Under the pieces are notes generated by a model. The model was not told the DNA's origin and ran no database searches. It saw nothing but the letters and a program-made list of their open reading frames with translations. From Candidatus Krumholzibacteriota bacterium (GTDB lineage: Bacteria > Krumholzibacteriota > Krumholzibacteriia > Krumholzibacteriales > Krumholzibacteriaceae): 64,000 bases of DNA. The position numbers and the translations under genes are program-made. The stretch covers positions 186,001 to 250,000 of the forward strand of contig JAFGCX010000007.1 of NCBI GenBank assembly GCA_016932415.1. The letters run 5' to 3'. This document shows, in pieces, positions 22,664 to 45,801 of this stretch (positions are counted from its first letter, which is position 1; each line of letters begins with the position of its first letter).

Positions 22664-22691
22664 TTGACATATTGATATTTGGTGTTATCAT
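22664..22691 (+). promoter_or_regulatory. Promoter of heparinase-like gene (possibly leaderless)
   Basis: TTGACA (22664-22669), 16-bp spacer, TATCAT (22686-22691). The start codon at 22698 is seven bases after the -10, so transcription would begin at the ATG itself. No SD site lies in the short gap. Confidence 0.65.
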
Positions 22692-22697
22692 TGAACG

Positions 22698-25277
22698 ATG
22701 AAAATATTCCATCGATATTCCGCCACGTGCCTCATTACCCTTTGCTGCCTTACCGTCAACGCTGAAGGCTCGGTAAAGAAGCGTTACTGCGACATTCTCT
22801 CTCCTCAATTCGTCATGGAGGATCTTATCGACCTCGGCAGGGAAGGATACTCGGAGGCGCTTATACTTCGCGAGAAGGGCGATTCGACGGGCTGCAGGCT
22901 CGAGATCATCAAGTCACTACTCGGCGAAAGGGCACCGCGAGGTTTCGATGTATGGCTTGTCCGCCCCGACGCCCTTCTCAGAGCGGACATGCTCCTTGAC
23001 AATAATTATATTCTAGGCATTCACGGGGGGTTCAAGCTTCCCGATGACCTGCGTTGGTCGGAAGACCCCGCCGCTTCCAACAACTGGCAGTTCAACCTTC
23101 TCGCGATGGACTTCCTGGCGAACTCGACAGAAGCTTTCCGGCAGACCGGCGAGAGAAAGTACCTCGACAAAGGGAAAAAGGCCATCCTCGATTTCATGGA
23201 GGATAATCTCGATTGCGCGAACCTGCCGAGCAGATATTCATGGTACGATCACAGCGTGGCGAACAGGACGATCCACGCTATCGATTTCTGGCACGAATGG
23301 TCCGGGCTCGGAGAGCAAGACATCGCTTTCACTGCCGTTTTCCTCGAATTTATATGGCGCCACGCGAAATATCTCGAAAAGAAGAGATACTATCCATCCA
23401 AGACCAACCACGGCATCTATGCCAATATCGCCCAGCTGAGACTCGCCCTGACATTCCCGCAATTCATTGAAGCTTCTTCGTGGAGGGATACAGCTCTGGC
23501 AAGGATGGAAAAACAGCTGGATGACAACTTTACCGATGAAATGATCCACAAGGAATACTCCCCTTCGTATCATATACTGACGACGAGGCTCCTTTACAGG
23601 TTCTGCGCCGATTGTTCGGCGGCGGGCGAGCTTATGCTTTCGACTGATTTCAAGACGCGGATAGAAAAAGCCCGCGGAAACATCGCCTGGCTCTTCCATC
23701 CTGATGGCAGGCTGTCGCTGATAGGAGATTCAAGCCTCAATTCCTCTATTGAATCGCTGATAGGCCACTGGAGGAGCGAGGAACCTTTCCTTCAATGGCT
23801 CCTGACTTCTGGGGAGAAGGGAAAAACGCCAGCGGCATCCTCGATCGGATTTATCGGCGCGCAGCTGTACGTTATGAGAAGCGGATGGGGCAAGACCCGG
23901 CCTTTCGGAGAGGAAAGCTACCTGATCGCTGATTTCTGCCCCTATGGAAAAGCTCATCAACAGGATGATTTTCTTTCCTTCGAGTTCTCATCCCTGGGCG
24001 TGAGGTGGTTCACCGATCTCGGCGTATTCAATTATAACGATAACGACACTGAGAGAAAATTTGTCATCTCTGCGCTGGCGCATAACGTGATAGTCCCCAT
24101 AGTCAACTCGCGGAAAATAAGCATAGGAAAGGACGACAGGGTCTCAGATGCCGGGAAGGACCCTCCTGAGACACAGCTCGAGTCGATGCTCGTCCATATA
24201 GAGACTATACCTCAGCCTTCGGCCCGAATAGAGGCGCTTCAGCAGTTAAAGGGACTTGGATCCGGCAGGATAAAAGCGCGCGTACTGCTCATGCTGGCTT
24301 TGAGTTACGAAGAACTGGGGAACAACCGGGGCAAAGCGAAAGAGTGTCTGGAAGAGATCATCGCGATGGAAAGCGAAACTGACTACGGCGAAATAGCCAC
24401 GCAGCTTCTAGCCACCCTCGACACAGACATAGAAGAGATCGATTTCGAGGAAAGTCCCGAGTTGGAAGGGGCCGCCGCTGACGGGATAAAAAAAGACAGA
24501 CGGGTCCTTGCCGAAAAGACGCCCGGCGCGTCGATAAGGCAAGGCGAATCGTTCGAAAAAGAGGAGAAAAAAGCGAATATAAAAGTCTCTTCAAAACCGT
24601 GGGCTGTAAATCCAGGCCACGGAGAGGCTCCGGAAGTAAACTACTGGATCGAGGATGATGACTACTGTTATCTCGAGGGAAGCTTCAGATATCACAGGGA
24701 TTTTCAACACGCGAGAGCGTTTCTTTTCATAAGACCGCGCACCTTGATCCTCATCGACAGGATAAAGACCAAGGGGGATTATTCTTTCAGGCAGCTCTTT
24801 CATCTGTCTCCTGAAGTTACGGCTGAAAGGTCTGACAATGGTTACATCCTTTCGGGGCCTGCCGGTAAAAAATGCCTCTTCTCGCGCATCACATCCCCGG
24901 AAGGTACAAGCGGCGAAATCGTCAGGGGCCAGAGAAACCCGGAGCTTCAGGGCTGGTTTTCGGGAGTTTTCGACAATTTCGAACCTTCCGACGTAGTCGA
25001 GTATTCGTTCTATCCCGCGTCTCACGGTGAATACTATTTCGCGCATATTATCATGCCGGCAAAAAAAGATGAGATAGACCGTTGCTTGTTCAGGACGGGC
25101 GACGCGTCTGATAATGTGGAATGGAATCCCGGAGGGACTGAGCCTCTTAAACTCGTCATCGAAAGCCCGGAAAAGATAACTACGGTATCCTTTTCACCCT
25201 CTTCTCTTTTTTCAGAAGTACCGGCCGGCGACGAGGTTAAAACGCCAGAGATCATTGTGAAGAACGCTCCTCGCTAG
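22698..25277 (+). CDS. Heparinase II/III-family polysaccharide lyase with helical insertion
   Basis: An 859-residue exported protein (signal 1-23). Residues about 90-400 form the (alpha/alpha) toroid (NWQFNLLAMDFLANS, SKTNHGIYANIAQLRLAL, KEYSPSYHILTTRLL). The catalytic beta-sandwich block begins DFCPYGKAHQQDDFLSFEFSSLGVRWFTDLGVFNYN near residue 412 and continues to AHNVI. Between residues about 480 and 630 a helical, TPR-like and highly charged segment interrupts the sandwich, which resumes at DDYCYLEGSFRYHRDFQHARAFLFIRPRTLILIDRI. Family members cleave uronic-acid polysaccharides such as heparan sulfate or alginate; which polymer is not deducible. Its stop overlaps the convergent gene by 4 bp. 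Confidence 0.87.
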   Translation: MKIFHRYSATCLITLCCLTVNAEGSVKKRYCDILSPQFVMEDLIDLGREGYSEALILREKGDSTGCRLEIIKSLLGERAPRGFDVWLVRPDALLRADMLLDNNYILGIHGGFKLPDDLRWSEDPAASNNWQFNLLAMDFLANSTEAFRQTGERKYLDKGKKAILDFMEDNLDCANLPSRYSWYDHSVANRTIHAIDFWHEWSGLGEQDIAFTAVFLEFIWRHAKYLEKKRYYPSKTNHGIYANIAQLRLALTFPQFIEASSWRDTALARMEKQLDDNFTDEMIHKEYSPSYHILTTRLLYRFCADCSAAGELMLSTDFKTRIEKARGNIAWLFHPDGRLSLIGDSSLNSSIESLIGHWRSEEPFLQWLLTSGEKGKTPAASSIGFIGAQLYVMRSGWGKTRPFGEESYLIADFCPYGKAHQQDDFLSFEFSSLGVRWFTDLGVFNYNDNDTERKFVISALAHNVIVPIVNSRKISIGKDDRVSDAGKDPPETQLESMLVHIETIPQPSARIEALQQLKGLGSGRIKARVLLMLALSYEELGNNRGKAKECLEEIIAMESETDYGEIATQLLATLDTDIEEIDFEESPELEGAAADGIKKDRRVLAEKTPGASIRQGESFEKEEKKANIKVSSKPWAVNPGHGEAPEVNYWIEDDDYCYLEGSFRYHRDFQHARAFLFIRPRTLILIDRIKTKGDYSFRQLFHLSPEVTAERSDNGYILSGPAGKKCLFSRITSPEGTSGEIVRGQRNPELQGWFSGVFDNFEPSDVVEYSFYPASHGEYYFAHIIMPAKKDEIDRCLFRTGDASDNVEWNPGGTEPLKLVIESPEKITTVSFSPSSLFSEVPAGDEVKTPEIIVKNAPR

Positions 25278-43965: not shown

Positions 43966-43994
43966 TTGACAAAACAGCAAAACAGGAGTAGAAT
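43966..43994 (+). promoter_or_regulatory. Promoter of the cysE-cysK operon
   Basis: TTGACA (43966-43971), exactly 17 bp, TAGAAT (43989-43994). Predicted start at about 44001, three bases before the leader-peptide ATG. Confidence 0.85.
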
Positions 43995-44003
43995 ATTACC
44001 AGC

Positions 44004-44054
44004 ATGAAGAGACAGAAAGGGCATTTAGACGGCTGTTGTACCCCGCTCAAATAG
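44004..44054 (+). CDS. Cysteine-rich leader peptide of cysE-cysK (attenuator)
   Basis: A 16-codon frame, MKRQKGHLDGCCTPLK, with two consecutive TGT Cys codons at 44034-44039 and a TAG stop at 44052-44054. The ATG lies about three bases from the predicted start of transcription, so it is probably read as a leaderless message; the only SD-like AGGAG (43984-43988) is inside the promoter. Right after it lie alternative hairpins and an intrinsic terminator ahead of cysE. Ribosome stalling at the Cys codons should tune read-through. This is inferred from sequence arrangement, which closely follows classical amino-acid attenuators. Confidence 0.75.
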   Translation: MKRQKGHLDGCCTPLK

Positions 44055-44063
44055 CGGTGGTGG
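44040..44063 (+). promoter_or_regulatory. Hairpin that sequesters the antiterminator strand
   Basis: ACC-CCGCT (44040-44047), loop CAAAT, AGCGG-T-GGT (44053-44061): eight pairs with one bulge. Its 3' arm contains GTGGTG (44057-44062), which can instead pair with CGCCAC (44115-44120) of the terminator. The two pairings exclude each other. Confidence 0.55.
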
Positions 44064-44114
44064 TTTCCTCTGCCCTGATATAGTCTTTTCATGACTCATT
44101 CATATTTTTCAAGG

Positions 44115-44158
44115 CGCCACGGATTCTCAGACCACAAGAGATTCCGTGGCGTTTTTTT
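44115..44158 (+). terminator. Attenuator terminator upstream of cysE
   Basis: A 14-bp stem, CGCCACGGATTCTC / GAGATTCCGTGGCG with one mismatch, loop of 9 nt, then seven T residues (44152-44158). It lies inside the cysE leader, 42 bp before the cysE start, so it must regulate rather than end the operon. Confidence 0.88.
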
Positions 44159-44200: not shown

Positions 44201-44872
44201 ATGTTCTGGTTGAATACGTTTAAAAGGATCAGAGAAGACTATTCTGTAGCTTTCAAAAGGGACCCGGCCGCGACAGGCTGGCTCGTCATCCTGTTCTGCT
44301 ACCCTGGGTTACACGCCGTGTTCCATCACCGGCTCACGAACTTTCTGTGGCGAAAGGGCATGCTCTTTCCCGCCCGTTTCATCTCCCATTTTTCCCGTCT
44401 CATCACCGGAATCGAGATACATCCAGGCGCCAGGATAGGAAAAAGACTCTTTATCGATCACGGCGCCGGAGTAGTGATCGGTGAGACTGCCGAGATCGGT
44501 GACGACGTCGTCATCTACCAGGGAGTCACGCTCGGAGGAGTGAGTCTCAGCAGAGGGAAACGGCATCCGACGATCGAATCGGGAGTCGTCATAGGAGCGG
44601 GAGCAAAGATCCTCGGTCCGGTCGTCATCGGAGAAAACGCGCGGATAGGAGCGGGATCAGTAGTAGTCAAGGGCGTCCCTGGCAATTGCGTCGCAGTAGG
44701 AGTACCGGCGAAAGTGATCTCTCACAGGGACAACAGCGATGGAGATCTCAGACACGACAGAATATCCGACCCCCTGCTCGGAGTGATCAGAAGGCTTGAG
44801 GAAAGGATGTATCACCTCGAGCGGATTATCGAGGGAGAAGGAACTGAAAACGCGGGAGGATCGCCATTATGA
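44201..44872 (+). CDS. cysE: Serine O-acetyltransferase
   Basis: Makes O-acetylserine from serine and acetyl-CoA, the first step of cysteine synthesis. The 223-residue protein has the short N-terminal helical region and the left-handed hexapeptide helix of Cys[42 protein letters not shown], with the catalytic His in DHG, and [26 protein letters not shown]. It starts after GGGAG and overlaps cysK by four bases (ATGA). Expression should be controlled by the Cys-codon attenuator just upstream. Confidence 0.96.
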
Positions 44873-45801
44873 GGAACCTCGTGGAAACGGTCGGAAAAAC
44901 GCCGCTTGTCCTGACGTCAAATCTCGCGCCGGGATCGACTGCCTCAATAGCTGTAAAACTCGAGAAGTACAACCCCGGTGGCAGCATCAAGGATCGGATA
45001 GCTCTTTCAATGATAAGGGACGCGGAAAGGTCCGGCAGGCTTGAACCTGGAGGAACTATCGTCGAGGCGACCAGCGGAAACACTGGGATAGGGCTGGCTG
45101 TCATAGCTGCGGCGCTTGGATATGGCATGAAAACGGTCATGCCCGAATCGGTGAGCGCTGAACGTCGGCAGATACTTGCTTCTTTGGGAGCTGAGATCGT
45201 GCTAACAAAAAAGGATGTCGGGATGTCCGGAGCGGTGGACAGGGCGATGGAACTTGCCCACGCGACGGATAAGGCGTTTATACCGATGCAGTTTGAAAAT
45301 CCGGCGAACCCGGAAGCGCACAGAAAGACGACAGGCCCGGAGATCTGGGAAGATACTGGCGGAAAGGTCGACGGGATCATCTGCGGCGTAGGTACGGGGG
45401 GAACTATAACCGGCCTCGGTGAGTTTCTCAAATCGAGAAAAAACACCATCGAGGTCTACGCTGTAGAACCGGCAGCTTCAGCGGTGCTCAGCGGAAAAGC
45501 GGCGCGGCCACATTCGATAGAAGGGATCGGAGCAGGTTTCATCCCGAAGATCCTCAACCGCGATATTATCAGCGAAGTGATCCCAGTGACGGAAGGGGAG
45601 GCGATCGCCGGAGCCAGGCTGCTCGCGTCGAGAGAAGGGATATTCTGCGGCATCTCATCCGGAGCGGCGATCGAAGCGGCGATAAGAATAGCAAAGCGAG
45701 GATCAAGCGCGGGCAAGCTATATGTCGTCATCCTGCCTGACGGCGGAGAAAAATATCTGAGTACGGGGTTGTGGGGCAACAGGCCGATCGGGATCAGGTA
45801 A
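44869..45801 (+). CDS. cysK: Cysteine synthase (O-acetylserine sulfhydrylase)
   Basis: PLP enzyme that turns O-acetylserine plus sulfide into cysteine. 310 residues, the usual size. The PLP lysine is Lys41 in [15 protein letters not shown] follows near residue 69 and the phosphate-binding GVGTGGT further on; SGISSGAA is the closing motif. Starts inside the cysE stop (4-bp overlap), which is consistent with a CysE-CysK complex. Its stop is only three bases from that of a convergent kinase gene, so no room exists for a shared terminator. Confidence 0.96.

Follow-up and report, generated by a model that had tools for sequence, protein, structure and literature searches.

A probable cysteine-codon transcription attenuator of cysE-cysK in Krumholzibacteriota and its gene-less homologues

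Closest described systems

In the trp and his attenuators of Proteobacteria and Actinobacteria, a short upstream open reading frame (uORF) with tandem codons for the product of the pathway and a hairpin at its stop codon stand ahead of biosynthetic genes, together with an antiterminator and an intrinsic terminator that are mutually exclusive. The leader that we describe here, which precedes cysE and cysK in a bacterium of the phylum Krumholzibacteriota, has the same plan: the tandem codons, the terminator and the cysteine genes downstream are all present, and so, for the leaders taken as a group, is a predicted antiterminator. It differs from the trp and his type in that it would sense cysteine, in its probably near-leaderless uORF and in a long helix anchored at the AUG.

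The uORFC-8-2 motif upstream of cysS in Rhodobacterales, in the portion of PMC8632094 that describes it, is proposed to attenuate transcription in a Cys-tRNA-dependent manner. According to the same portion, it too combines a uORF with tandem Cys codons, stems and an intrinsic terminator; its target is cysS rather than cysE-cysK, it belongs to another lineage, its Cys codons are usually codons 14-15 rather than 11-12, a leaderless start is not described for it there, and no homology to our leader is seen in what is given there. Cys uORFs without obvious terminators were predicted in 2005 for mycobacteria, Propionibacterium and Bifidobacterium (PMC1262725). A 2015 study reported leaderless uORFs with polycysteine runs in the sulfur operons of mycobacteria (PMC4633059), and they are described as translation attenuators (Canestrari et al. 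2020, as cited in the relevant passage of PMC13236596). These mycobacterial uORFs resemble ours in the near-leaderless start, which is predicted here, the runs of Cys codons and the position before cysteine genes (PMC4633059), whereas a conserved terminator was not found in the 2005 analysis (PMC1262725) and a strong, conserved one is present here. In Sinorhizobium meliloti, trpL is a leaderless uORF that attenuates transcription, and the RNA released on termination, rnTrpL, is a small RNA that acts in trans (PMC7298713). There, and perhaps here, a leaderless uORF attenuator is linked to a stand-alone small RNA, but the amino acid is tryptophan and the leader stays attached to trpE, whereas our leader has separate homologues that lack a gene.

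The element is thus neither of the mycobacterial class, because it has a terminator, nor uORFC-8-2, because the gene is different. The initial annotation of this DNA had regarded a leaderless Cys-codon attenuator in an FCB-like lineage as new. The lineage and the target are new, but Cys-codon attenuators (PMC8632094) and leaderless attenuators (PMC7298713) were each known.

The cysE-cysK leader and its relatives

The features of the locus are collected in Table 1, in coordinates of the window, by which we mean the whole stretch of 64,000 nucleotides that was analysed. The promoter and the 16-codon frame, with its tandem Cys codons and its stop, lie where the initial annotation had placed them, and the hairpin at the stop codon and the strong terminator that it described before cysE are both present. 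A promoter scan gave one match against 0.8 expected, which is not significant by itself; the promoter is supported because it is conserved in relatives. Both cysE and cysK exceed their NCBIfam cut-offs, and the genes behind the leader therefore make the very amino acid that would be sensed.

Table 1. Promoter, leader, pairing segments and genes of the cysE-cysK locus
Feature	Position	Strand	Detail and basis
sigma70-type promoter TTGACA-N17-TAGAAT	-35 43966-43971; -10 43989-43994	+	17-nt spacer; read from sequence
Leader peptide uORF, MKRQKGHLDGCCTPLK	44004-44054	+	ATG 44004, 16 codons, stop TAG 44052-44054; sequence and relatives
Adjacent Cys codons TGT TGT (codons 11-12), proposed sensor	44034-44039	+	sequence; relatives with 2-3 Cys codons
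Segment A	44004-44023	+	AUGAAGAGAC (44004-44013) with 44083-44092; AGGGCA (44018-44023) with 44071-44076
Segment A', 3' partner of A	44071-44092	+	its GCCCU is also part of the predicted antiterminator; folding, covariation
Hairpin P1 around the uORF stop codon	44039-44062	+	44039-44047 with 44053-44062; folding
Predicted composite antiterminator, 5' strand	44057-44076	+	folding; pairing among relatives
Predicted antiterminator pairs	44057-44061 with 44131-44135; 44062-44063 with 44126-44127; 44066-44068 with 44121-44123		
Further predicted antiterminator pairs	44072-44073 with 44116-44117; 44074-44076 with 44112-44114		
Intrinsic terminator	44111-44158	+	stem 44111-44128/44138-44155; seven U 44152-44158
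cysE, serine O-acetyltransferase	44201-44872	+	TIGR01172, 235.3 bits (cut-off 210.65); SD-like AAAGGGAG upstream
cysK, cysteine synthase A	44869-45801	+	TIGR01139, 400.7 bits (cut-off 350.95); 4-nt overlap with cysE

The 160-nt leader folds with -64.2 kcal/mol (z = -5.8 against shuffled sequence), and the terminator hairpin has -24.7 kcal/mol; with the terminator removed, the fold still has z = -3.7 against shuffled sequence. A scan of the window and all loci examined, 1.8 Mb on both strands, looked for adjacent Cys codons in a short frame that has a strong terminator 25-160 nt behind it. The cysE leaders were conspicuous among the matches; the few unrelated ones mostly had weak hairpins. Judged from its sequence, the 158-base stretch looks like a real built-in switch that would end transcription unless ribosomes stall at the Cys codons.

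Our sample comprised 80 genomes of the host phylum, with 25 genomes in the host order. A cysE of the type found in the window occurs in six of the 25 (G000, G005, G007, G008, G010 and G013), and in all six family genomes that have it the gene is preceded by the promoter, a Cys uORF of 15-17 codons, the stop-codon hairpin and the terminator. The six leader peptides are MKRQKGHLDGCCTPLK, MKGKVGHNNCCTTLK, MRRRIGHNSCCCSPLT, MKRRNGHRSCCCTMPK, MKGRNGHISRCCSPLT and MKRRAGHTRVNCCCPLT. Three class-level relatives from another family have a cysE that is 53-54% identical and leaders that are unlike in sequence, and all three contain an in-frame Cys-Cys-Cys followed by a terminator (peptides MDRLLSNPTCCCRPVHITDRREGL, MTVKNLSSFISCCCPARHSAREG and MKRTRMHLCCCRHLHRGRPGRAYR). 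Thus, each of the nine orthologous leaders has two or three adjacent Cys codons in its uORF and, between the promoter-uORF and cysE, a terminator on the same strand.

Within the family we compared seven Cys-type elements, namely the six cysE leaders and an element without cysE in G004. In every one of them the frame, Cys-Cys and the stop are kept, indels are multiples of three, and substitutions in the uORF are often synonymous, affecting Leu, Gly and Cys codons (the last by TGC/TGT swaps). The alignment of cysE leaders suggested by the initial annotation thus confirmed conserved Cys codons and pairings with compensatory changes. Loss of the Cys frame or of the paired arms in close relatives was looked for and not seen; all six family leaders and the three class-level ones keep the Cys uORF and the terminator. 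A Cys uORF with a terminator upstream of cysE was found in none of 80 named genomes of many phyla. One lookalike among these (L040) was rejected, having no terminator and being probably antisense to the neighbouring gene. The other families of the class that were sampled likewise had no such leader before cysE or cysK-cysE.

In the window, 9 nt separate the end of the -10 hexamer from the ATG of the uORF, and this gap holds no SD sequence. Each of the seven Cys-type elements of the family has 8-10 nt at this place, and the class relative G030 has 7 nt. Transcription usually starts 5-9 nt after the -10 hexamer, so the predicted 5' UTR is about 0-4 nt long, into which an SD sequence does not fit. 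From this promoter spacing, a near-leaderless start is likely in the family and in G030. In the other two class relatives (G034 and G037) the gap is instead about 30 nt, with a GAGG-like motif close to the ATG, and their 5' UTR is SD-like. The mechanism does not require a near-leaderless start across the class, and the leaderless uORF of the initial annotation is retained as a probable near-leaderless one that is not universal.

Across the window, a permissive count gave an SD-like core ahead of at least one start codon in 27 of the 33 large reading frames. At 22664-22698 of the forward strand, a promoter-like TTGACA-N16-TATCAT stands 6 nt before the ATG (22698) of a reading frame that spans 500 codons or more, possibly a second leaderless mRNA.

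A probable default-off helix and a predicted composite antiterminator

We consider it very probable, on comparative grounds, that the leader is a ribosome-mediated Cys-codon transcription attenuator of the cysE-cysK operon. The uORF, the Cys codons, the terminator and the conserved pairings are present in the sequence, and from them we infer the transcription start, the stalling, the read-through and the response to cysteine. The RNA would start at the ATG of the uORF or a few bases from it. With ample cysteine, the ribosome would reach the stop codon and cover the 3' arm of P1, so that no antiterminator forms and the terminator halts RNA polymerase. When charged tRNA-Cys is scarce, the ribosome would stall at the Cys codons, covering the uORF half of the leader and freeing the 3' arm of P1; the segments beyond the stop codon could then pair with the 5' arm and loop of the terminator, and the polymerase would continue into cysE-cysK. 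With no ribosome on the RNA, A:A' and P1 would form, and A:A' would hold the region that makes the antiterminator, so that the terminator stands and the default is off. The initial annotation had likewise read the locus as terminating with ample cysteine and antiterminating on a stall, and this reading is supported, with amendments to the antiterminator and to the helix that locks it.

Folded one by one, the six family leaders share a single architecture: A:A', P1 and then the terminator. Helix A:A' begins at the AUG and encloses the Cys codons and P1. In the alignment of the seven Cys-type elements, 91.5% of paired cells are standard pairs, against about 48% with slid partners, and nine pairs have changed on both sides, against a mean of 3.7 in shuffles (none of 500 shuffles as high). 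A first MAFFT alignment put part of A' in the wrong place; the pair counts come from a model-fitted alignment, which is fitted to the structure and hence favours it, and the margins are large. Hairpin P1 has four pairs with changes on both sides within the family, and both segments of A:A' are kept there by compensatory changes. In G008, for example, a change spans three strands: GGAC replaces GGGC in A, GUUC replaces GCCC in A', and GACGCU replaces GGCGCC in the terminator arm. A model in which the untranslated leader would be locked off by a long helix anchored at the AUG, in addition to the small hairpin P1, is thereby supported. The initial annotation had the untranslated leader terminate through the small hairpin; the off state stands, but this hairpin is not its sole lock, since the long helix adds to it.

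We then took the part of the RNA that a ribosome on the Cys codons leaves exposed, as far as the 3' end of the terminator loop. When folded, it gives one composite hairpin in all seven family elements, in which the post-stop segment pairs with the terminator loop, and further pairs join it to the 5' arm of the terminator; in most of these elements A' (GCC, CCU) pairs with GGC/AGG of that arm. The pairs between the post-stop segment and the loop are GUGGU/ACCAC, AGCGA/UCGCU, GUGGAA/UUCCAC, UGGUCU/AGACCA, AGG/CCU, GGUG/CGCC and GAGG/CCUC. GTGGTG (44057-44062) and CGCCAC (44115-44120), which the initial annotation had paired, are both present and complementary, and in the window their pairing is one of the registers of this interaction, but not the register kept in relatives; the conserved form is the composite, with the 5' arm and the loop as partners, and is broader than GTGGTG:CGCCAC.

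In a three-state folding that masks all RNA up to the edge of the stalled ribosome, the antiterminator hairpin of the nine leaders has -14 to -25 kcal/mol at a stall on the last Cys codon, and in all nine it is weaker with the ribosome at the stop codon. When the upstream part was shuffled for comparison, the native leaders sequestered the terminator arm better, with a combined p of about 1e-5 over ten leaders. The window sequence alone does no better than shuffles (p 0.33-0.36), and in the class relative G037 the antiterminator is unconvincing (p = 0.81). A permutation over seven relatives indicated that the terminator 5' half and loop of a genome fit its own post-stop segment better than swapped ones do (p = 0.003 for fold energy, 0.010 and 0.007 for duplex energy). 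By these comparisons, the terminator loop is co-evolving with the segment 3' of the uORF stop. Antiterminator potential is significant in six of the seven Cys-type elements and not significant as a group in 18 homologues without a gene, described below (combined p = 0.29), and the two sets differ (Mann-Whitney p = 0.0012). Several of the segments and masks behind these values were chosen by hand, and part of the statistics was computed once the pattern was already known.

That antiterminator potential tracks the Cys codons supports the attenuator reading. Conservation of the terminator stem is no proof of antitermination, because the stem is also conserved in the gene-less homologues that have no antiterminator. 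With the mask reduced to the footprint of the ribosome, so that the RNA on its 5' side can pair, A:A' remains the favoured fold whichever Cys codon is occupied in G007 and G013, and at the last Cys codon in G000 and G005. The model therefore depends on a trailing ribosome, or on folding kinetics, to hold the upstream strand.

The uORF might instead work on translation, a stall altering the delivery of ribosomes to cysE or the exposure of its SD, with the terminator serving only to end upstream transcripts. Mycobacteria likewise have a near-leaderless polycysteine uORF before cysteine genes, but here a same-strand terminator with a U tract precedes cysE in all nine orthologous leaders, its loop covaries with the post-stop segment, and the SD of cysE lies beyond it, outside the predicted structures. 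We judge an action on translation to be quite improbable.

Gene-less homologues in the host order

A covariance model built from the six leaders matched related elements in 24 of the 25 genomes of the order (E <= 1e-6), with a weak match in the 25th, G023 (E = 0.026), and a search with the same model found none elsewhere in the phylum. Most of the matches are not leaders: no gene lies behind them, and most lack the Cys frame. The gene-less elements keep the TTGACA promoter, a helix at the 5' end of the RNA and the terminator GAGRCGCCACGGAUUC...CCCGUGGCG-U, and in nearly all gene-less loci examined a convergent glycosyltransferase gene comes next. Both forms, the leader with cysE-cysK and the gene-less one, occur in the genome of the window. 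Its homologue at G000:C16:52803-52952 (L147, outside the window; 67.7 bits, E 1.7e-14) is gene-less and lies between an asparagine-synthase-like gene and the convergent glycosyltransferase gene, with similar elements at this place in most of the order. A service of the gene-less terminator as a bidirectional terminator for the glycosyltransferase gene was judged unlikely because the other strand has no T run after it.

At the glycosyltransferase locus, G005, G007 and G010 have the leader followed by cysE(-cysK), while in G000, G008 and G013 this locus is occupied by the gene-less form and leader-cysE-cysK lies at another place. In G004 (L129:1501-1654) an intact Cys uORF (MVRQNGQFNNCCTPLK) and the terminator stand directly before the convergent glycosyltransferase gene with no cysE, which may reflect a recent loss of cysE. 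In a tree of the neighbouring glycosyltransferases, the three loci with cysE are not grouped together, and those of G010 and G004 each branch, well supported, next to gene-less groups. The pattern is explained by cysE having been lost repeatedly; insertion is the alternative. Separately, the gene-less element L136 of G014 (reverse strand, 1521-1544) has a mini-frame MKCCCAAP followed by a stop, the start codon of which is absent from the two other genomes of the genus.

Between close relatives the 5' structure of the gene-less elements is kept, with 67-100% of pairs intact against 47-59% for slid partners and few double changes. RNAalifold on the gene-less elements recovered the terminator only, and the 5' helix was seen in single folds and within-genus comparisons. 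The kept 5' structure suggests that the gene-less RNAs have a function, and their antiterminator potential, which is not significant as a group, suggests that they no longer attenuate. Tentatively, and at somewhat less than an even chance, the attenuator may have survived the loss of its gene: cysE would have disappeared repeatedly, whereupon the unit of promoter, leader and terminator, still in place beside the convergent glycosyltransferase gene, shed its Cys codons and antiterminator and came to persist across the order as a separate RNA of about 150 nt that has its own function.

The presence of gene-less homologues in most genomes of the order, several of which keep a GUUGU-like sequence at the position of the Cys codons, could be taken to mean that the leader itself is a structured RNA or small-RNA gene, with TGTTGT an RNA motif rather than codons and cysE expressed by read-through. 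However, the frame and the tandem Cys codons are kept wherever cysE occurs, and in G004, with in-frame indels and synonymous changes; the class relatives, whose leaders are unrelated in sequence, still have an in-frame Cys-Cys-Cys; and antiterminator potential accompanies the Cys codons. An RNA gene of this kind is less likely still than an action on translation. Least likely of all, and scarcely credible, is a metabolite riboswitch or Cys T-box in place of the ribosome-mediated attenuator: it would suit a strongly structured leader with a terminator before a cysteine operon, but the uORF and helices explain the conserved elements, and Rfam 15, including its T-box and riboswitch families, gave no match at gathering score in the window, nor any in eight related loci with E allowed as high as 1.

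As places where sister attenuators might lie, we sought hisG and found none in the 25 genomes searched (G000-G028), and in the host family leuA had no full-length match, the best matches being short and below the cut-off, suggesting wide amino-acid auxotrophy. The Cys-codon attenuator of cysE-cysK would bring attenuation of the ribosome-mediated kind that responds to cysteine, based on a near-leaderless uORF plus a terminator, to an uncultured phylum whose sampled genomes have no hisG, and the comparison supports a joint evolution of Cys codons and antiterminator. In the gene-less homologues, a cis-regulatory leader and a stand-alone RNA appear as the same element in different genomes, so that the descent of a small RNA from an attenuator can be put to the test.
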